From assembly GCA_017853315.1 (NCBI GenBank), contig JAFMJW010000005.1, positions 1 to 52,170 of the forward strand: a stretch of DNA of 52,170 nt, read 5' to 3'. Source of the DNA: Alphaproteobacteria bacterium (GTDB taxonomy: Bacteria > Desulfobacterota > Binatia > UBA12015). Shown here in pieces: positions 1 to 20,874 of this stretch; the first letter of the stretch is position 1, and each line of letters begins with the position of its first letter. The notes under the pieces are model-generated. The model had not been told where the DNA came from. It did not search any database and was given only the letters and a program-made list of their open reading frames with translations. The translations under genes and the position numbers were made by a program.

Positions 1-1195
1 CGACGGCCGCGGCGGCGGCCACGGGCTCGGCCTCGACCGCGCCGTAGAGGGTCGTGCGCTGCCGCGGCACCCGGCCCATCGAGCGTACGAGTCGCTCGAT
101 CTCCTCGGCGGAGGTGTACTCGCCGGCGTCGGCCCCGGCCTCGCGGGAGATGCTCTCCTCCATCAGGGTGCCGCCGAAGTCGTCGACACCGGCCGCGAGG
201 CTCAGCGCGGCGAGCTCGTGGCCGAGCTTCACCCACGAGGTCTGCAGGTGGGGGATCGAGCCGCGGAAGAAGACCCGCGAGGCCGCGTACATGCGGAGGT
301 CGGGCGCCCCCGAGGGCGTCGGCTCGACCAGTCCGCGCTGGTAGAGCGCGGTCTTCTCGTGGATGAAGCGCAGCGGCACGAACTCCGTGAAGCCGCCGGT
401 GTCGTCCTGGATGCGGCGCAGCAGGGCGAGGTGGGCCGCGACGTGACGGTCGGTCTCGACGTGGCCGTACATGACCGTGGACGTCGTGGGCAGGCCGATC
501 CGGTGCGCGGTCGTCACGATCTCGATCCAGGTCGCCGTGTCGACCTTCTTGTGGGAAAGGATCTCGCGGACCTCGTCGTCGAGGATCTCGGCGGCCGTGC
601 CGGGGACGCTGCCGAGGCCGGCGTCGCGCAGCATGGCGAGGTAGTCGCGGTAGGTCATGCTGGTGCGGCGCGCGCCGTACATGATCTCCATGGGCGAGAA
701 GGCGTGCACGTGGATGCGCGGGAACGCGCCCTTGATCGCGACGAGCATGTCCCGGTAGGTGAACGCGCCCATCTGCGGGTTGATCCCGCCCTGCATGCAG
801 ACCTCGGTCGCACCGCGATCGACGGCTTCGGCGACCTTGGCGAGCACCTCTTCGGTGCCGTGGTTGTAGGCGTCCTTCTCCCAGCGCTGGCGCTTGAAGG
901 CGCAGAACTGGCAGTTCACGAAGCAGACGTTCGTGAAGTTCACGTTGCGGTTGACGACGTAGGTGACGACGTCGCCCACGTCGTCGGCCCGGATGCGGTC
1001 GGCCGTCGCGACCAGGGCGCGCAGGTCCTCGCCCTGCGTGCGCAGGAGCCCGAGCAGAGCCTCTTCGTCGATGCGATCGCCGGCGAGCGCGGCCTCGAGC
1101 GTGCGTGCGACCGGCGGGCTCGCGGTCGCGATCCGGCGCTCGATCGGCGTCCCGTCGGGCAGCAGCGCGCGCACCTCGTCGCCGGGCGGCGTCAC
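1..1195 (-). CDS. cofH: CofH, radical SAM subunit of F0 synthase (3' end cut by window edge)
   Basis: CofH transfers the 4-hydroxybenzyl part of tyrosine to 5-amino-6-ribitylaminouracil, the first of the two radical SAM steps to F0, the flavin-like core of coenzyme F420. The translated minus strand shows the radical SAM CxxxCxxC cluster motif at C91, C95 and C98 inside the stretch NFTNVCFVNCQFCAF, then the family's GATEVCMQGG and PHLQTSWVKLG segments. The start is the GTG at 1195, whose GTGA overlaps the stop of cofG, so the pair is translationally coupled. About 398 codons are present with no stop before the left edge; the family is about 370-400 residues, so only a few residues can be missing. 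Confidence 0.93.
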   Translation of the reverse strand, partial: MTPPGDEVRALLPDGTPIERRIATASPPVARTLEAALAGDRIDEEALLGLLRTQGEDLRALVATADRIRADDVGDVVTYVVNRNVNFTNVCFVNCQFCAFKRQRWEKDAYNHGTEEVLAKVAEAVDRGATEVCMQGGINPQMGAFTYRDMLVAIKGAFPRIHVHAFSPMEIMYGARRTSMTYRDYLAMLRDAGLGSVPGTAAEILDDEVREILSHKKVDTATWIEIVTTAHRIGLPTTSTVMYGHVETDRHVAAHLALLRRIQDDTGGFTEFVPLRFIHEKTALYQRGLVEPTPSGAPDLRMYAASRVFFRGSIPHLQTSWVKLGHELAALSLAAGVDDFGGTLMEESISREAGADAGEYTSAEEIERLVRSMGRVPRQRTTLYGAVEAEPVAAAAAV

Positions 1196-2391
1196 GGCCG
1201 GGCCTCCGCGTCGGCGGCGGGGGAGAGACGGGCCTGCCAGGCGTCGATCGCCTCCCGCATCTCCGGGGCGACGAACTCCGCCCGGGACGCGTATTCCGGG
1301 TAGATCGGCAGGCGCTCGGCGAGGCGATGGCCGTGGGCGGCGCAGCGCTTGGCGAGCGCGCCCAGGTGCGGCCAGGGCGCTTCCGGGTTCACGTAGTCGG
1401 GGGTGAGCGGCGAGATCCCGCCCAGGTCGTTGATGCCGGCGTCGAGCAGGGCTTCGAGCGCCTCGGGATCCGAGAGGTTCGGCGGGGCCTGGACGTTCAT
1501 CGACGGCCCGAGCAGGAGGCGCGTGACGGCGATGGTGCGCTGGAGGTCGAGGGCGTCGGGCTCGCCGGCCGTCGCCATCGGGATCTCCGGCTTCGCCCGG
1601 AAGTTCTGCACGATCACTTCCTGCACATGGCCGAAGCGGTCGTGCAAGTCGCCGATCGCGAGGATCGTGTCGACGCGCTCCTCCGGGGTCTCGCCGATCC
1701 CGAGGAGCAGTCCGGTGGTGAACGGGATGTTCTGCTCGCCCGCGTCGCGCAGGACGCGGAGCCGGGCTTCGGGATCCTTGTCCGGTGCGTACCAGTGCAC
1801 CTGCCCGCGGGCGCGGAGCCGCGGGCTCGTCGACTCCAGCATGAGGCCGAGGCTCGCGTTCAGCGGTCGCAGCAGCGCGAGGTCCTCCGGCGTCATGAGG
1901 CCCGGGTTCGAGTGCGGCAGGAGCCCCTCGTCGAGGGCGACCCGGCTGCACCGCGCGACGTAGGCGATGGTCGAGGCGTGGCCCGCCTCCGCGAGCCAGC
2001 GGCGATATCCGGCGAAGGCGGCCTCGGGCTTGTCGCCGAGGCAGAGCAGGGCCTCGCAGCAGCCGAGCCCGCGCGCGCGCACGGACCAGGCGGCGACCTC
2101 CTCGAGCGTCATCGTCCAGGCGCCTTCCTCGCCCTCGTCGCGCCGGAAGGTGCAGTAGGCGCACCGGTCCCGGCAGAGGTTCGTCACCGGGAAGAACGCC
2201 TTGCGCGAATAGGTGACGACGCGTCCCTTGCCCATGTCGCGCAGGTCGCGGGCGCGGGTGAGCAGGTCGTCGACCTCGTCTCCCTGCGCCGACAGGGCCC
2301 GGATCGCCTCGTCGCGACTCGGGGGACGCCACGCATCGCGAGCCGAGGTTCCGATCGTGGTGCCGGCGACGTCCAGCGCTTGCGTCCTCAT
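1192..2391 (-). CDS. cofG: CofG, radical SAM subunit of F0 synthase
   Basis: CofG closes the deazaflavin ring of F0 (7,8-didemethyl-8-hydroxy-5-deazariboflavin) from the CofH product. The 399-residue protein carries the radical SAM motif C73-x3-C77-x2-C80 (NLCRDRCAYCTF), followed by typical CofG segments (GLGCCEALLCLGDKPE, HSNPGLM, GLMLESTSPRL, LGIGETPEERVDTI, VQEVIVQNFRAKPEIPM). It is a separate gene, as in archaea and cyanobacteria, and not fused to CofH as in the actinobacterial FbiC. ATG start at 2391; an 88-base gap separates it from the upstream gene, so it may have its own promoter. No F420 ligase or other cof gene is visible here. Confidence 0.95.
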   Translation of the reverse strand: MRTQALDVAGTTIGTSARDAWRPPSRDEAIRALSAQGDEVDDLLTRARDLRDMGKGRVVTYSRKAFFPVTNLCRDRCAYCTFRRDEGEEGAWTMTLEEVAAWSVRARGLGCCEALLCLGDKPEAAFAGYRRWLAEAGHASTIAYVARCSRVALDEGLLPHSNPGLMTPEDLALLRPLNASLGLMLESTSPRLRARGQVHWYAPDKDPEARLRVLRDAGEQNIPFTTGLLLGIGETPEERVDTILAIGDLHDRFGHVQEVIVQNFRAKPEIPMATAGEPDALDLQRTIAVTRLLLGPSMNVQAPPNLSDPEALEALLDAGINDLGGISPLTPDYVNPEAPWPHLGALAKRCAAHGHRLAERLPIYPEYASRAEFVAPEMREAIDAWQARLSPAADAEARP

Positions 2392-2479: not shown

Positions 2480-3190
2480 TCAACCGACCGCGGGCGCGGT
2501 CGCCGGATCCAACGGATCGAGGGAGGCAGGGGCGCCGACGGCCCGGGCCGGTGCAGGGCGGTTCCTCGTCGGGGGGCCGAGGGCGAGGGCGAGCTGGACG
2601 GGCGGGGTCCGAAGCTCCCGCCCGGCGAGGGTACCGGACTCCACCGGATCGGGGGCGGTCCGATCTTCGAAGTCGTCCCGGCGCCGCGGCTCCGGACGCC
2701 CCGCGTCCGGGCCCGCTGCCGGGGCGGCGGGGGCGAGCCCGGCGAGGGGAAGCCTCGCCGCGAAGGCCTGCAGGTAGAGCGTCCACTCGGAGAGGTCGCG
2801 CGTCGCGCCGTCGGAACGCTCGAGCGCGAGGTCGACCAGCGAGCGCAGCTGCCCGGGGTCGAGTCGGGGACCCGCCGCCGCGTGTCCGGGCAGGATGCGC
2901 CACCCGAGCGGCCCGTCGGGCTGCTCGCGGGCTCCCCGCGCGAGCGCGCGAAGCGCGGGGTCGGCCTCGCATCGCACCGGGATCGTCGTGGTGGCGAGCG
3001 GCTCCGACGCCGGGAGGTCGGTCGTGGCCTCGCCGCAGGGGGCCCAGCGGCGCAGGCGGCAGGACGTGTGCCGCTCGGAGAATGCCCGCTCGTCGCGTTC
3101 GAGTTCGAGCGCCAGCTCCGAGTCGCGGCGCAGGACGGAGCCGAGGACGCGAAGCGTCTCGCCGCAGTCGGTGCACTCGAGGAACGTCAT
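2480..3190 (-). CDS. hypothetical protein with putative N-terminal zinc-binding cysteines
   Basis: A 236-residue protein I do not recognise. It starts MTFLECTDCGETLR with a CxxC pair (C6, C9), and C44 and C52 could complete a four-cysteine zinc site. The middle (about residues 65-160) reads as an ordinary soluble fold with leucine-rich helices; the last 70 residues are rich in Pro, Ala and Arg and probably disordered. No membrane segment or signal peptide is seen. The ATG at 3190 follows the stop of the receiver-kinase gene by 7 bases, with a G-rich Shine-Dalgarno stretch at that junction, so the two genes are cotranscribed. It could be an accessory or output protein of that signalling unit; this is inference from position only. 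Confidence 0.65.
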   Translation of the reverse strand: MTFLECTDCGETLRVLGSVLRRDSELALELERDERAFSERHTSCRLRRWAPCGEATTDLPASEPLATTTIPVRCEADPALRALARGAREQPDGPLGWRILPGHAAAGPRLDPGQLRSLVDLALERSDGATRDLSEWTLYLQAFAARLPLAGLAPAAPAAGPDAGRPEPRRRDDFEDRTAPDPVESGTLAGRELRTPPVQLALALGPPTRNRPAPARAVGAPASLDPLDPATAPAVG

Positions 3191-3197
3191 GCCCGGA

Positions 3198-4292
3198 TCA
3201 CCCCCCGAGCCCGGCGACACGACGGCGAGCGGTCGCCGCCTCTTCCTCCGGCCGGATCGGTTTCCGGTCGCTCCACCGCACGCGCACGACCGGGCCGTGG
3301 CCGCTCGGGCGCGGGCGCTCGATCCTCGCGCCGAGCGCGGAGGCGGCGCGCTCGAGCACGTCGCCTCCGCCCCACGGGCCCGCTTCCGCGTCGGCCGGCG
3401 ACCCGATCGCCGCATCCTCGGCGCCGCGGGCCTCGAGGTCGATCGCCCACTCGTCGTGACGAAGGGCGCTCGCCCGCACCCGGATCGCGGCCCCGGGGCG
3501 GCGTGCGAGGAGTTCGAACGCGAGCACGCCCATGAGCCGCCCGAGTGCGGCCGCGTCGGCCCGGGCGACGAGTCCCGGGGGAATCTCGACGTCGACGTGG
3601 CCGCCGGTGCGGATCGCCTCGTCGCGAACGGGCGCGAGCCACGACGCGATCCATGCCGCCACGTCGAGCGGCCCCGGTCTCGGTGCGAGGCGTCCGCCCT
3701 CGCTCTCGGCGAGGAAGAGCAGGCCTTCGAGGTAGGAGAGCAGGCGGGCCGAGCAGCGCCGGATCCGGTCGAGCGCCTCGCGGTGCGAGCCGTCGAGCCG
3801 CTCCCCGGCCTCTTCGTCGAGGATCTCGCTGTAGCCGACGATGGCGTGCAGCGGGGTGCGGAACTCGTGCGAGAGGTTCCCGAGCAGGTGCCCGCGGATC
3901 TCGCTCGCGCGGCGCCGGGCCGCGCGAGCAGCGAGCGCGCCCCGGACCGAGGCCAGGACCGACGGTCCGTGAAACGGCTTCGCGATGTAGTCGCGGGCGC
4001 CCAGCCGCAGGCAATCGACCGCGGTCTCGAGGGTGCCGTGTCCCGTGACCACGAGCGCCTCCACGTCGATTCCCCCGTCGCGGATCGCGCGGAGGGCCTC
4101 GGTCCCCGAGAGGTCGCGCGGCATCGTCAGGTCGAGCAGGACGACGTCGAACGCGTCCTCGCGGAGCAGCCGCAGCGCGTCGGTGGCGCGACCCGTCGTG
4201 GTCACCCGGTACTCGGGCTTGAGCAGCATCCGCAGCGACTCCCGGGGCCCGGGCTCGTCGTCGACGACGAGGATGCTGCTCGGCTCGCGCAT
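3198..4292 (-). CDS. receiver-histidine kinase hybrid with degenerate ATPase domain
   Basis: A 364-residue soluble signalling protein. Residues 5-120 form a receiver domain with acidic D11/D12, phospho-acceptor D54, T83 and K105 all present. Residues 130-195 form a HisKA dimerisation helix pair with the phosphorylatable H142 in LSHEFRTPLHAIVGYSEIL. The C-terminal third sits where HATPase_c should be, but the N-box position reads LMGVLAFELLARR without its Asn, and I find no DxGxG box. It may therefore act as a receiver-linked phosphotransfer protein and not as a kinase; this is inference. No Shine-Dalgarno is visible before the ATG, and the sigma-54 element at 4307-4322 would give a leader of only about 4 bases. 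Confidence 0.85.
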   Translation of the reverse strand: MREPSSILVVDDEPGPRESLRMLLKPEYRVTTTGRATDALRLLREDAFDVVLLDLTMPRDLSGTEALRAIRDGGIDVEALVVTGHGTLETAVDCLRLGARDYIAKPFHGPSVLASVRGALAARAARRRASEIRGHLLGNLSHEFRTPLHAIVGYSEILDEEAGERLDGSHREALDRIRRCSARLLSYLEGLLFLAESEGGRLAPRPGPLDVAAWIASWLAPVRDEAIRTGGHVDVEIPPGLVARADAAALGRLMGVLAFELLARRPGAAIRVRASALRHDEWAIDLEARGAEDAAIGSPADAEAGPWGGGDVLERAASALGARIERPRPSGHGPVVRVRWSDRKPIRPEEEAATARRRVAGLGG

Positions 4293-4306
4293 GCGCGCGT
4301 GTGCGA

Positions 4307-4322
4307 TGCACCCGGCGTGCCA
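4307..4322 (-). promoter_or_regulatory. sigma-54 (-24/-12) promoter for the receiver-kinase gene
   Basis: On the minus strand the bases read TGGCACGCCGGGTGCA. This matches TGGCAC-N5-TTGCA at every conserved position except one T, with the obligatory GG-N10-GC spacing. The expected start of transcription, about 12 bases past the GC, lies near 4296, four bases before the ATG at 4292. An NtrC-type activator gene lies directly upstream, and inverted repeats sit about 120-130 bases upstream of the predicted start, the usual place for an enhancer site. Confidence 0.72.
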
Positions 4323-4414
4323 CGACGGCCTCGCGCGGCGTCGCGCGATCGACGCCCGTCGGCCGCGGTCTTCGCCGCATCGCGAAGCCGGGGTCGCTCT
4401 CGCGTTGCTGCACG

Positions 4415-4437
4415 ACGTTCGCGAATGAACGTACGTT
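4415..4437. promoter_or_regulatory. inverted repeats, candidate enhancer (UAS) for the NtrC-type regulator
   Basis: ACGTTC-N6-GAACGT (4415-4432) is a perfect inverted repeat, and it overlaps a second perfect 10-base palindrome AACGTACGTT (4428-4437). They lie in the 219-base gap between the response regulator gene and the receiver-kinase gene. The first repeat is centred about 127 bases upstream of the transcription start predicted from the sigma-54 element. Position and dyad symmetry fit an upstream activating sequence; that the neighbouring regulator binds it is inference. Confidence 0.5.
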
Positions 4438-4511: not shown

Positions 4512-5930
4512 TCAGGACGGCCGGTCGGGGATGCCGAGCTTGTCCATGCGGTACTTCAGGATGCGTCTCGTCGTGCCGAGCCGCTCCGCGGTGCGCGTCT
4601 GGTTCCAGTCGCAGCGGGCGAGCGCCTCGCGGAGGATGGCCCGCTCGAAGTCGTCCACGGCCTCGGAGAGCGATCGCTCTCCGCGCAGCACCGCCTCGCC
4701 GCGATCGTCGTGTCGCGGCATGGCACTCGTCCGCATCGGCTCGGGGAGCTCCTCGGGGCGCACCGGCCCGCCCGTGCCGAGGATGAACAGCCGCTCGACC
4801 AGGTTCTCGAGCTCGCGGACGTTGCCCGGCCAGCGGTAGCGCTCGAGCACGGCCACCGCCTCGGGCGAGAACGGGCGCTCGACCACCCCGAGCTCGCCCG
4901 CCTTCTCGCGCGCGAAGTGGCGCAGGAGCAGCGGAATGTCCTCGCGGCGCGCGCGCAGCGGCGGGAGCGCGAGCGAGACGACCGCGAGGCGGTAGAAGAG
5001 GTCCCCGCGGAAGGCTCCCTCGGCGACCGCCTGCTCGAGGTCGCGGTTGGTCGCCGCGACGATCCGGACGTCGACCGAGACGGGCTTGGTGCCACCCACG
5101 CGCATGAGTTCGCCGGTCTCGATCACCCGCAGCATCTTCGCCTGGAGGGCCGGGTGCATCTCGCCGATCTCGTCGAGGAAGATCGTCGAGCCGTGGGCGA
5201 GCTCGAAGTGCCCCACCTTGCGGGCGTCCGCGCCGGTGAAAGCACCGCGCTCGTGGCCGAAGAGCTCGCTCTCGAGCAGGTTCTCGGGGATGGCGGCGCA
5301 GTTGATGGCGGTCATCGGGAGCGCCGATCGCGGGCTCTGGTGGTGGAGCGCGCGTGCGATGAGCTCCTTGCCGGTCCCGCTCTCGCCGGTCACGAGCACC
5401 GTGGTCCTCTGCGGGGCCACCATCGCGACGGTGCGGAAGATCGGCTGCATCGCGGCGCTGCGGCCCACGATGTTGCCGAGCTGGTAGCGCCGTCCGACCT
5501 CCGCCCGCAGCTCCTCGACCTCGCGCTGCAGGGCCGCGGTCCGGCTCGCGTTGTGGACGACGGCCCGCAGCTCGTCGAGGTCGAAGGGCTTCTGCACGTA
5601 GTCGAACGCGCCGAGCTTCATCGCGGTCACGGCGGTCTTGAGCGTGCGCGTCGCCGTGAGCATGACGACCGGCAGCTCCGGGTGCCGGCCGCGCAGCCGC
5701 TCGAGCACCGCGAGGCCGTCCATCCCCGGCATCAGGATGTCGAGGAGCACGACGTCGGGGCGCGCCTCGGCGGCGAGCGCGAGCGCGCGTTCGCCGTTCT
5801 CGGCCTGCACGACCTCGAAGCCGTCGCGCAGCACGAGGCGCAGCGACTCGCGCACGCCGAGCTCGTCGTCGACGACGAGCACGCGCGGGCGTCGCGGGCC
5901 GCCCTCTTCAGGCGTCGCGTCGGAGGCCAT
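4512..5930 (-). CDS. NtrC-family sigma-54-dependent response regulator
   Basis: A 472-residue activator of sigma-54 RNA polymerase. Receiver domain at residues 15-130 with D21/D22, phospho-acceptor D64, T92 and K114. Central AAA+ domain at about 153-385 with Walker A GESGTGKE (182-189), the sigma-54 contact loop GAFTGA (229-234), Walker B FLDE (251-254) and the typical WPGNVREL segment. C-terminal Fis-type helix-turn-helix near 430-468 (RTAERLGTTRRILKYRMDKLGI). All motifs look intact. Its start overlaps the end of the kinase-like gene by 23 bases, so that gene is the probable cognate partner. The downstream sigma-54 promoter at 4307-4322 is its most likely local target. Confidence 0.95.
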   Translation of the reverse strand: MASDATPEEGGPRRPRVLVVDDELGVRESLRLVLRDGFEVVQAENGERALALAAEARPDVVLLDILMPGMDGLAVLERLRGRHPELPVVMLTATRTLKTAVTAMKLGAFDYVQKPFDLDELRAVVHNASRTAALQREVEELRAEVGRRYQLGNIVGRSAAMQPIFRTVAMVAPQRTTVLVTGESGTGKELIARALHHQSPRSALPMTAINCAAIPENLLESELFGHERGAFTGADARKVGHFELAHGSTIFLDEIGEMHPALQAKMLRVIETGELMRVGGTKPVSVDVRIVAATNRDLEQAVAEGAFRGDLFYRLAVVSLALPPLRARREDIPLLLRHFAREKAGELGVVERPFSPEAVAVLERYRWPGNVRELENLVERLFILGTGGPVRPEELPEPMRTSAMPRHDDRGEAVLRGERSLSEAVDDFERAILREALARCDWNQTRTAERLGTTRRILKYRMDKLGIPDRPS

Positions 5931-7359
5931 CTCGTCCGGCGTGGCGTTGGCCGGCCCGCGCGGCGGGACGTGCCGCCTCGGCCCCGGGGAAGCGGATCTC
6001 GACGAGCCGCCGCCCGTCCTCCTCGCGCGAGACGAGCGAGGCGCCGCCGTGGGCGAGCGCGCCGCGGGCCAGCAGCAGGGGCAGCGGGAGGTCGTCGTCG
6101 AGCCCGGTCACGCCGCGCAGGTGGCTCGTCGCGCCGGCTTCCGGGAGCCGGAGGGAGAGCGCGTCGCCGTGGACCAGGACCGCGAGCGTCCCCTGCGGTT
6201 CGATCGTCTCGACGACGTGGCGGGCGACGGCGCCCAGCGCGGCCCGCAAACGTGGCTCGTCCGCGACCGCGACCAGCCGCGCGCCCGGCTCGACGTCGAG
6301 CGAGCAGTCGTTGCCGGCGCGGGCCGCCTGCGCCTCGGAGAGTGCGTCGCGCAGCACCGCAACGACCTCGATCGTGTCGGGATCCGGCGGCGCGAACCGG
6401 GAGAACGCGAGGATGTCCTCCAGCGTGTCGTCCATCCGGGTGATCGCTTCCTCGGTCAGGTCGCGGAAGCGCGCGAGGTCGGCGGGGTCGCTCGCGAGCT
6501 GGGCGACGCTCTGCACGAAGGTTCGCACGGTGACGAGCGGGTTCTTGATGCGATGGGCGAGTTCGACGGCGATCGCCTCGCTGCCCACGCCGGCGACCGC
6601 CCCGGTGCCGTCCGAAGCCCGCTCCCCCGCGGGATCGTCGCGGCGCGCTTCTCTCGCGAGGCGTGTCGCTTCACGCGCGCTCGCCGTCCCGGCGACCGGC
6701 GCCCAGCGAAGGTCGTCCGCGTCGACCAGCGGGCCCTCGACCTCGACCAGCGTGCGAGCGAGCACCCCGTCGAGCTCCGCCGCGTCACCCGGCCAGTCGT
6801 GGTCGAGCAGCGCATCGAGCGCCGCGGAAGAGAGGGCCGGGGCCTCGCGTCCGAGGTCCGCCGCGAGGGCGGCGACCCGGGCGCGCGCGATCTCGGCGAG
6901 GTCCGAGCCGGCGCGCGCGAGCGACGGCGTGCGCACCGTGATCGTGGTGACGAGCGCCCAGAGTTCCGGGCGAAGAGTCTCGCGCAGCGCGTCCACGTCC
7001 GCGAGGCTCGCCGAGACGAGGCGCGGTCCGTCGACGCCGCCGTCGAGCAGCCGCAGGAGCGCGGCCTGGGCGTCGTCGTCGAGACGATCGATGCCGTCCA
7101 CGGCGAGCGTGCAGCGCGGCGACGTCGCGGCGCGGATCAGGCCGGCCAGGAGTCCGTCCCTCGAGCCGAGGAGGTCGACCTGCACCAGGCGGTCGCGGCG
7201 ACTCGCCGTGTGGATCGAGGCCGCGATGCGGTCGAAGGCCGGGCCGCAGCAGTCGAGGCAGAGCACCGGAAGAGAGGAGGGCGCGACCCTCTCGAGGGTG
7301 CGGGCCGCTGCAGGCGGGAGGAGCCGCTGGGCCGGGAGGCTCTGGCGACGGGCGTTCAT
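5908..7359 (-). CDS. histidine-kinase-like protein with decayed sigma-54 AAA+ module
   Basis: A 483-residue protein. Residues 28-215 align by eye with the AAA+ module of sigma-54 activators: a Walker-B-like TLAVDGIDRLDDDAQAALL (84-102), LRPELWALV in place of FRxDLYYRL, and HDWPGDAAELDGVL in place of [12 protein letters not shown]. There is no Walker A and no GAFTGA. Residues 260-330 are a HisKA unit with H269 (ELAHRIKNPLVTVRTF). The following ATPase region keeps a late LLLARGALAHGG box, but the N-box position reads LRAALGAVARHV without Asn. ATG at 7359 overlaps the stop of the membrane protein gene (ATGA). It is probably a sensor or adaptor for the overlapping NtrC regulator; whether it binds ATP is doubtful. 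Confidence 0.8.
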   Translation of the reverse strand: MNARRQSLPAQRLLPPAAARTLERVAPSSLPVLCLDCCGPAFDRIAASIHTASRRDRLVQVDLLGSRDGLLAGLIRAATSPRCTLAVDGIDRLDDDAQAALLRLLDGGVDGPRLVSASLADVDALRETLRPELWALVTTITVRTPSLARAGSDLAEIARARVAALAADLGREAPALSSAALDALLDHDWPGDAAELDGVLARTLVEVEGPLVDADDLRWAPVAGTASAREATRLAREARRDDPAGERASDGTGAVAGVGSEAIAVELAHRIKNPLVTVRTFVQSVAQLASDPADLARFRDLTEEAITRMDDTLEDILAFSRFAPPDPDTIEVVAVLRDALSEAQAARAGNDCSLDVEPGARLVAVADEPRLRAALGAVARHVVETIEPQGTLAVLVHGDALSLRLPEAGATSHLRGVTGLDDDLPLPLLLARGALAHGGASLVSREEDGRRLVEIRFPGAEAARPAARAGQRHAGRDGLRRDA

Positions 7360-7724
7360 GGCCTGCTTCCGACGGAGCCCGAGTCCGGGGCCCGCGAGAC
7401 CGCGGGATCGTTGCGACGGGCGCGGACCGCGCCGAAGGCGGCGAGGACGATGCCGGTCGCGACCAGCAGGCGACCGCCGGTCGCGACCACGTGGTAGAAG
7501 TCCTGCCGGACGCGGGCGATCTCGACGTCGGCATCGACGGCGGCTTCGCGCGCGCGCGTCCGCGCCCGGTGGATCGGCGGTTGCGAGATCCCGGTCTCGG
7601 CGATGTCGCGCAGTCGCATCGTGCCGGTCGCCCAGTTGCCGAGCCCGAGCGCGATGAGCCCGAGGCCCGCGACCAGGAGGTGGTTGCGGTACCACGCGCT
7701 GCGCGGGGGCGAGGTCTCGGGCAC
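7356..7724 (-). CDS. small two-helix membrane protein
   Basis: A 122-residue protein I cannot assign to a family. Two hydrophobic helices are visible, about residues 15-33 ([18 protein letters not shown]) and 83-103 ([17 protein letters not shown]). They flank a 50-residue hydrophilic, arginine-rich linker containing an acidic patch ([14 protein letters not shown]). The C-terminal 20 residues are polar. It is the first gene of the minus-strand signalling operon and is coupled by ATGA to the kinase-like gene, which itself has no membrane segment. It may therefore supply membrane anchoring or signal input for that protein; this is inference. The 18-base palindrome at 7748-7765 lies just upstream of its ATG. 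Confidence 0.75.
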
Positions 7725-7747
7725 GACGGCATCTCACCCATTCCGGG

Positions 7748-7765
7748 CCCGGGTTGCAACCCGGG
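7748..7765. repeat. 18-base perfect palindrome, candidate operator
   Basis: CCCGGGTTGCAACCCGGG is its own reverse complement over all 18 bases. It lies 24-41 bases upstream of the ATG of the membrane protein gene, where a promoter or operator would be expected, and about 325 bases upstream of the divergent activator gene. It has no T-tract on either side, which argues against a simple terminator. Confidence 0.6.
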
Positions 7766-7851
7766 GTTGCCCCGGAGGACGTCACGCTTCGCGTCGCGGG
7801 CGGTCGCGTTGCACGCACGTCTGCGCGGACGGCAACCGGACGCGCGCGCGC

Positions 7852-7867
7852 TGGCCTCCTCCTTGCT
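7852..7867 (+). promoter_or_regulatory. sigma-54 (-24/-12) promoter-like element
   Basis: The bases TGGCCTCCTCCTTGCT contain the -24 TGGC and the -12 TTGCT with exact GG-N10-GC spacing. The downstream gene at 8090 encodes a sigma-54 activator, so autoactivation is possible. The leader would be about 210 bases, which is long, and the AC after TGGC is not conserved. Confidence 0.5.
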
Positions 7868-8089
7868 CCGGCGAGGGATCGAGGGGGGCGGCGGCGCGAC
7901 GCGTGGTGCGTCGCGTTGCCGCCCGGGGGAGCGGGCGGGCCGGCTGCGAAAGCGTGTCGGTCCGCCCGACTTCGTCTTCGCGCCGGCCTTCCCGAGTCTC
8001 GTTATGCGTGCCCGGGCATCGATCCCGGCCTCGCCTCGCTGCTAAGTCGTCGCTTCGGAGCGTCGACGAGGGCGCGGAGGGGGGCGGAG

Positions 8090-9229
<1,140 letters not shown>

Positions 9230-19242: not shown

Positions 19243-20874
19243 GTGACGTCGCTCGACGAGGCCACGCCCGCGGGGCTTCCGGTCGTCACGACGGCGCAGG
19301 CGCGCGCGGCGGACCGACGCACGATCGAGCTCGGGACGCCCGGCCTGGAGCTCATGGAGCGGGCCGGCCGCGGGATCGCCGCGGAGATTCTCGGTCCGCT
19401 TCGCGCGCGTGCGGCGCGCGGCGTCGTCGTCGTGGCCGGCCGCGGCAACAACGGGGGCGACGGCTTCGTCGTGGCCCGGTTGCTTGCGGCGGCGGGATTT
19501 CGGGTCGAGGCGTGGCTTCTCGGGCCTCGCGAACGGGTGACCGGCGACGCGCGCGCGAATCTCGACCGCTGGCTCGCATCCGGGGGGCGCGTCGAGGAGC
19601 TCGGCGAGGCGCAGGGCCCGGCGGCGCTCGCGGCGCGGCTTCGCTCGGCAGGCGTCGTGGTCGACGCGGTCTTCGGGACCGGGCTGAACGCGGAGATCCG
19701 GGGGCCCGCGGCCCGCGTGATCGAGGCGATCGCGCTCGCCCGCCGGCCCTCCCGGGAGATGGCCGGGTCGGGGTCCTCGCCCGTCGTGCTGTCGGTCGAC
19801 CTCCCTTCCGGGCTCGACGGGGACACCGGCGAGCCGTGGGGAACCGCGGTATCGGCGGACGTCACCGTGACGCTCGGCGGGACCAAGCTCGGGCTCCTGC
19901 TCCCCGCCGCGCGCGCTCACGTCGGCCGCCTCGTCGAGGTCGACATCGGGCTCGCGCCGGAGGCGCTCGCAGCGATCGAGCCGCTCGCGCGTGCGGCCAC
20001 GCTCGAGATGGCGCGGGCGCTGCTGCCTGCGCGGCCGGTGTCGGGCCACAAGGGCTCGCACGGGCACGTCGTGGTCGTCGCCGGATCCGACGGCAAGGCC
20101 GGCGCGGCGGCGCTCGCGGGGCGGGCCGCGATCCGGGGCGGGTCGGGGCTCGTCACGATCGCGACGCCCGCGGCGGTGCGCGACCTGGTCGCAGGTCTCC
20201 TGCCGGAGGCGATGACCGAGGCGTGGCCGGCTGCGGGCGTCGACTTCGGGCCGCTGCTCGACGGCCGCGATGCCGTGGTGTGCGGGCCCGGGCTCGGGCG
20301 CGAGGCTGCCGCGGCCTCGGTCGCACGACGGCTCGCGAGCGCGGTCGCGCTCCCGCTCGTGCTCGACGCCGACGGGCTGAACGCGTTCGCGGGCGAGCCC
20401 GAGGCGCTGCGATCCGCGCCGGCTGCTCGCGTGCTCACGCCGCACCCCGGCGAGATGGCCCGACTCGCCGGCGTCTCGGTGGCCGACGTCCAGGCCGACC
20501 GGCTCGGCGCCGCGCGCGCGATGGCCGGCCGCTCGGGCGCCGTCGTCGTCCTGAAAGGGGCGGGAACCGTGGTGGCGCATCCCGACGGCCGAGCCTGCGT
20601 GAACACGACCGGCGGCGCGGTCCTCGGCACCGGGGGCACGGGCGACGTGCTCGCGGGGCTCGTCGGCGCGCTGCTCGCCCAGGGCGTCGAGGCCTTCTCC
20701 GCGGCGCGACTCGGGGTCTTTCTGCACGGGCTCGCCGGCGACCGGGTGGCCGGGCGGATCGGGGACGCGGGGCTTCTCGCCTCGGAGTTGGCCGACGAGA
20801 TTCCGCTCGCCCGGCGGGCGCTCCTCGCCCACTCGGGCGGCGAGCGGTGCGGGGCCCGGGAGGCGCTGTTATAG
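19243..20874 (+). CDS. nnr: bifunctional NAD(P)HX epimerase / ADP-dependent dehydratase
   Basis: This enzyme repairs hydrated NADH and NADPH. The 543 residues hold a YjeF_N epimerase half (about 15-240: MERAGRGIAAEIL, VVVAGRGNNGGDGFVVARLL, DAVFGTGLN, SVDLPSGLDGDTG) and a dehydratase half of the ribokinase-like fold (about 262-535: GHKGSHGHVVVVAGS, VCGPGLG, DADGLNA, LTPHPGEMARL, VLKGAGT and the catalytic GTGGTGDVLAGLVGALLAQG). Start GTG 19243, five bases after pdxJ. It ends ten bases before the tsaE start, so all belong to one transcription unit. Confidence 0.95.
   Translation: MTSLDEATPAGLPVVTTAQARAADRRTIELGTPGLELMERAGRGIAAEILGPLRARAARGVVVVAGRGNNGGDGFVVARLLAAAGFRVEAWLLGPRERVTGDARANLDRWLASGGRVEELGEAQGPAALAARLRSAGVVVDAVFGTGLNAEIRGPAARVIEAIALARRPSREMAGSGSSPVVLSVDLPSGLDGDTGEPWGTAVSADVTVTLGGTKLGLLLPAARAHVGRLVEVDIGLAPEALAAIEPLARAATLEMARALLPARPVSGHKGSHGHVVVVAGSDGKAGAAALAGRAAIRGGSGLVTIATPAAVRDLVAGLLPEAMTEAWPAAGVDFGPLLDGRDAVVCGPGLGREAAAASVARRLASAVALPLVLDADGLNAFAGEPEALRSAPAARVLTPHPGEMARLAGVSVADVQADRLGAARAMAGRSGAVVVLKGAGTVVAHPDGRACVNTTGGAVLGTGGTGDVLAGLVGALLAQGVEAFSAARLGVFLHGLAGDRVAGRIGDAGLLASELADEIPLARRALLAHSGGERCGAREALL

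Follow-up and report, generated by a model that had tools for sequence, protein, structure and literature searches.

A conserved sigma-54-type promoter close to the start codon of a receiver-HisKA gene that precedes cofG and cofH

In the window analyzed here, a stretch of 52,170 nt that makes up one complete contig of a 4.0 Mb assembly (3,978,266 bases in 398 contigs), a gene for a 364-aa protein with receiver and HisKA domains (RR-HisKA; 3198..4292, minus strand) is preceded by a sigma-54 type promoter element at such short distance that the predicted mRNA leader is only four nucleotides long. In sequence comparisons, other members of one class of uncultured bacteria keep this layout, and the regulator site upstream of it, at the same operon. 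We consider it likely that the promoter, together with an NtrC-type activator encoded next to it, drives a near-leaderless RR-HisKA mRNA that reads through to the F420 genes cofG and cofH.

Promoter element and predicted transcription start

The -24/-12 element TGGCACGCCGGGTGCA (4307..4322, minus strand) differs from the consensus TGGCACG-N4-TTGCW only by a G in place of the first T of TTGC, in agreement with the original prediction of a near-consensus sigma-54 element. The GG and GC dinucleotides are intact and separated by 10 nt, as sigma-54 promoters require. In promoters of this geometry, the +1 is expected 12 nt downstream of the C in the GC box. With this C at 4308 and the ATG at 4292, both read directly off the sequence, transcription is predicted to start at 4296 (minus strand) and to leave a leader of 4 nt (4293..4296, minus strand). 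The start near 4296 that was proposed originally thus follows from the -24/-12 geometry, and is as such a prediction only. None of the motifs GGAG, GAGG and AGGA occurs within 20 nt upstream of the ATG, which bears out the claim that no Shine-Dalgarno (SD) sequence precedes it, and the start codon is an ATG, as it is in leaderless mRNAs. We use ‘near-leaderless’ in place of the earlier ‘leaderless’ because a leader of 4 nt is predicted; the short leader without an SD sequence stands, and recurs in several families.

The genome encodes rpoN (PF04963, E = 1.2e-64). Searching both strands of its 3,978,266 bases with the pattern TGGCACR-N5-TGCW gave six matches, from which we estimate a chance rate of about 1.5e-4 per 200 bp of one strand. 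One of the six falls within cysS. Among the five matches other than that of RR-HisKA, at least two have surroundings that point to a promoter, one at a receiver-domain gene and one at glnB, a classical sigma-54 target (genes at these matches were named by eye from translations). Another sigma-54-like match in the window, TGGCGCGGGCGCTGCT (14 bits), is located at 20009 on the plus strand, and the 54 nt that follow it contain no ATG. Between positions 2300 and 6000 of the window, no terminator and no sigma-70 consensus was found; a hairpin considered as a terminator between the NtrC-type gene and RR-HisKA was rejected, its stability being at the level of shuffled sequences (z 0.23).

Conservation of the promoter at orthologous loci

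Orthologues of the RR-HisKA protein were collected from 29 related genomes, the nearest of them congeneric and the most distant sharing only the class, to give 30 loci including that of the window. Each upstream region was scored by its best -24/-12 weight-matrix match within 80 to 25 nt before the start codon, with 12 bits taken as strong. By this measure, 26 of the 30 regions carry a strong element, whereas random windows drawn from this DNA reach the threshold in 0.33% of cases. The loci cover seven families, so the conservation reflects more than recent common descent, yet the related genomes are not independent and the locus counts overstate the number of independent events. One of the related sequences, L032 (CAMBZJ010000025.1), is titled Klebsiella pneumoniae but comes from the GC-rich species that is sister to the window's organism, and the title looks wrong. 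An assignment of these bacteria to Myxococcota was considered and dropped, as MYXO-CTERM was found in only one of 29 genomes.

The distance from the predicted +1 to the ATG is bimodal, with 4–8 nt in 21 loci, 22–43 nt in 8, and none in the 9–21 nt range between them. Short leaders are found in all ten loci of family f1, to which the window belongs, in f6 and f8, in two loci of f15 and in one of f2. All 21 short-leader loci start with ATG, and none has an SD-like motif, whereas five of the eight long-leader loci do (Fisher's exact test by our own arithmetic, about 5e-4). The start methionine occupies the same alignment column and is invariant across 29 RR-HisKA proteins, and in the f2 locus L014 an earlier start is excluded by a stop codon that lies in frame 9 nt upstream. 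The near-leaderless layout is therefore better explained as an alternative promoter state than as a miscalled start codon. At one locus (L031), the adjacent NtrC-type gene, the promoter and the enhancer are all missing together.

Enhancer site and NtrC-type regulator

The inverted repeats that had been noted about 127 bases upstream turn out to be one copy of a conserved palindrome, GTNCA-N4-TGNAC, that is common to the intergenic regions. In the window the repeat reads ACGTTC-attcgc-GAACGT, and its 14-bp core GTTCATTCGCGAAC (4417..4430, minus strand), 125–138 nt before the ATG, has one mismatch to the class motif. Twenty-two of the 30 loci carry the palindrome with no more than one mismatch, where 2.0 are expected (the maximum among 200 Markov shuffles was 5 loci), and 13 carry it exactly, where 0.08 are expected. 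Since the motif was both defined and scored on one set of sequences, these figures describe the site and do not test it; what counts is the size of the excess.

Directly upstream of RR-HisKA lies a gene for an NtrC-type response regulator (4512..5930, minus strand) with a receiver, a sigma-54 AAA+ domain that includes the GAFTGA motif, and a Fis-type HTH, which we propose as the activator. The adjacency noted in the original prediction holds in 26 of the 30 loci, with the gene ending about 140–340 nt before the ATG. The protein scores below the NCBIfam equivalog cut-offs for AtoC (501 against 714 bits) and NtrC (468 against 559 bits), and for this reason we name it only ‘NtrC-type’. An enhancer-binding protein and an upstream site, the usual companions of a sigma-54 promoter, are thus both present as sequence features.

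The recognition helix TTRRILKY(R/K)(M/I)DKL accompanies the GTNCA-N4-TGNAC site. In five f2 loci (L013, L014, L016, L023 and L026) the helix instead reads TSRRVLRYRMEKL; there the site is either missing or changed (CAAARNTGTCCRG). This joint change, the only clear change of motif, is suggestive support for the pairing of regulator and site. CAAARNTGTCCRG, itself conserved, sits at the extreme 3' end of the NtrC-type gene. It may represent an altered enhancer site, although coding constraint may contribute to its conservation because of this overlap. Two loci, L008 and L010, keep the promoter and the enhancer site with no NtrC gene immediately adjacent.

The RR-HisKA protein and the genes behind it

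The phospho-acceptor Asp, the Lys and the H-box His are invariant in the alignment of 29 RR-HisKA proteins. The ten f1 proteins have all lost the ATP-binding N, G1 and G2 boxes, which most other families retain as LLDNAVKF, DSGIGM and GLGLGL. The description of the protein as a receiver-kinase therefore holds for its receiver and HisKA domains, but without the N and G boxes the f1 proteins probably have no autokinase activity. They may instead act as a phosphate sink, phosphatase or phosphotransfer protein on the same pathway.

Seven nucleotides after the RR-HisKA stop codon begins a gene for a protein with a CxxC...H motif (2480..3190, minus strand), followed after 88 nt by cofG (1192..2391, minus strand; TIGR03550, 412 bits, cut-off 213) and by cofH, which reaches the contig edge and whose start is not fixed (2..1201, minus strand; TIGR03551, 479 bits, cut-off 374). 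Both encode subunits of FO synthase, and with scores above the equivalog cut-offs and the same gene ahead of them in several families, the earlier placement of cofG-cofH behind the receiver-HisKA gene is upheld. The short gaps and the single strand throughout make read-through to cofGH likely, while the 88-nt gap could hold a separate promoter.

The CxxC...H protein (about 230 aa) is encoded behind RR-HisKA in most loci, from overlapping to 30 nt apart. It matches no Pfam or NCBIfam family, and a fold search with the confident model of an orthologue (pLDDT 89) gave no PDB match; its relatives include one at L119:7648-8325. The order RR-HisKA, CxxC, cofG, cofH with short gaps was seen in the f1 genomes examined and in f7 and f15, while in f13 cofG and cofH follow with an insertion. 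In f8, one locus (L129) has the order RR-HisKA-cofG-cofH-cofD, cofD being named by eye from its N-terminus, and another (L132) has a further gene in between. The recurrence of this order across families makes a wiring of the regulatory genes to FO (F420) synthesis plausible. No cofGH was found within the stretch examined in f6 and f2, and with RR-HisKA away from cofGH in these families, its ancestral role would not be tied to F420.

The near-leaderless layout across genomes

Genome-wide counts were obtained by pattern searches of the distance from TGCW to ATG, using distance histograms and shifted distances as controls. These were chosen because a reversed-pattern control (21 matches as compared with 6 for the pattern itself) was unfair for one GC-rich genome. 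In four f8 genomes the distance peaks at 12–14 nt, with 34 of the 106 matches over 0–30 nt (p about 2e-10 against a uniform distribution). Nine f1 genomes, which apart from the window's own locus had no part in choosing this range, have 23 of 78 matches at 12–14 nt (p about 8e-7), although at least three of the 23 are probably coding matches. In seven genomes from other groups the distribution is flat (16 of 127 at 12–14 nt). By hand sums over 98 genomes of the class, 205 matches lie at 12–14 nt and 108 at 21–23 nt. The corresponding hand sums by family are 24:4 in f1, 52:13 in f8, 31:15 in f6 and 11:4 in f4, with the reverse ratio in f9 (11:14) and f5 (4:14).

The ATGs at 12–14 nt belong to real genes whose products have conserved N-termini, and several of these genes recur in different genera: a PilT-like ATPase, HDOD, XRE-type HTH, S30AE-cold-shock fusion, Usp and hemerythrin-CBS proteins. 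Family f8 genomes with the layout before unrelated genes include G020, G025, G039 and G045, among others (loci L168-L201). A second case in the window's genome (L208, on contig 357 of G000) stands before the gene of a conserved 59-aa protein and is also present in the sister species (L211, G001). The cysS match TGGCACATCGAGTGCT-N5-ATG and a match to TGGCACACGYTCTGCTGG in three f1 genomes were discounted, as both look like conserved coding sequence. In a sample of 20 genes, too small for a conclusion, general SD use in f1 was at background level (0.15). Loss of the anti-SD sequence was considered as a cause and set aside: one f1 genome (G011) has an intact CCTCC end of the 16S rRNA, while most assemblies gave no match.

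By these patterns, the RR-HisKA locus belongs to an architecture found throughout the genome. We see roughly even chances that in this class a whole sigma-54 regulon, with the type IV pilus ATPase, a ribosome hibernation factor, Usp, HDOD, this operon and others, is transcribed near-leaderless; the genes turned on by enhancer-binding proteins would then be translated without SD-dependent 30S initiation, an arrangement to which surveys based on the -10 box would be blind.

Comparison with known systems

The locus resembles sigma-54 promoters with NtrC-family activators in its GG-N10-GC element, the presence of rpoN, an activator with receiver, GAFTGA motif and Fis HTH, and a palindromic site 100–200 nt upstream. 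Unlike the usual sigma-54 promoters, its ATG follows the predicted +1 by about 4 nt and lacks an SD sequence; its activator falls below the equivalog cut-offs for NtrC, AtoC, NtrX and ZraR, and its enhancer motif was matched to no named regulon. With the leaderless mRNAs of Streptomyces, Deinococcus, Mycobacterium and rhizobia it shares the lack of an SD sequence and, if transcription starts as predicted, an AUG near the 5' end. Promoters described for leaderless genes are of the -10 type, namely TANNNT located about 12 bp upstream of the start (PMC3160421), the extended -10 TGnTA (PMC4842269) and the sigma-70 motif TAnAaT (PMC3847290), in contrast to the -12 box of sigma-54 found here. A 2011 survey of leaderless genes detected only Pribnow-like promoters and noted that their number may be underestimated (PMC3160421); surveys keyed to the -10 box would miss near-leaderless sigma-54 genes. 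In the passages covered from the openly accessible literature on leaderless mRNAs and sigma-54/RpoN, mainly transcript-start maps, we found no leaderless genes described as a sigma-54 class, which within this scope is weak evidence of absence.

A sigma-54 version of leaderless expression would place SD-independent translation under a promoter whose opening needs ATP and is tightly switched. The rule TGCW, 12–14 nt, ATG can be applied to any sigma-54 transcriptome. Unlike known F420 (FO) genes, cofG-cofH have a sigma-54/NtrC module in front of them in several families, and a single literature search returned no paper linking F420 synthesis to sigma-54. The operon is a candidate for two-component control of F420 synthesis in these bacteria.

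Proposed mechanism and alternatives

In the mechanism that we favor, the phosphorylated NtrC-type regulator would bind GTNCA-N4-TGNAC about 130 nt upstream and remodel the sigma-54 polymerase. Transcription would begin about 4 nt before the ATG, with RR-HisKA translated by SD-independent initiation at the 5' end, while read-through would express the CxxC gene and then cofG-cofH. RR-HisKA would share receiver chemistry with the NtrC-type regulator and may feed back on the pathway.

A lone match with one mismatch to the consensus could arise by chance in GC-rich DNA, but with just six matches in the genome and the element strong at most orthologous loci, this origin is contradicted by the comparative data and is very improbable. 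A less remote alternative, which we still regard as unlikely, accepts the promoter and its regulation but has RR-HisKA translated from a leadered mRNA, which either reads through from the NtrC operon or begins farther upstream, with the sigma-54 transcript being minor or serving the downstream genes only. The two genes are on the same strand about 220 bp apart with no terminator found between them, as read-through would need. Against this, the empty interval between the two leader classes and the absence of SD motifs exactly in the short class suggest selection for a short transcript, and unrelated genes show the same distance peak.

Similarly unlikely is an activator other than the adjacent NtrC-type regulator, such as the second enhancer-binding protein that the locus itself encodes on the opposite strand (7754-9229, plus strand). 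The loci L008 and L010 would agree with such an activator, whereas the prevailing adjacency of the NtrC orthologue and the joint change of recognition helix and site in f2 favor the adjacent regulator.

Upstream of the NtrC-type gene, on the same strand, is a gene of uncertain start (5908..7818, minus strand) for a degenerate sigma-54-AAA domain fused to HisKA, a probable sensor partner. This protein is conserved at that position, and in other families there is also a match to a receiver-like part. The divergent gene beyond it is followed by lipB and a MeaB-like gene (to 11025, plus strand), in an order that is kept in several f1 genomes.
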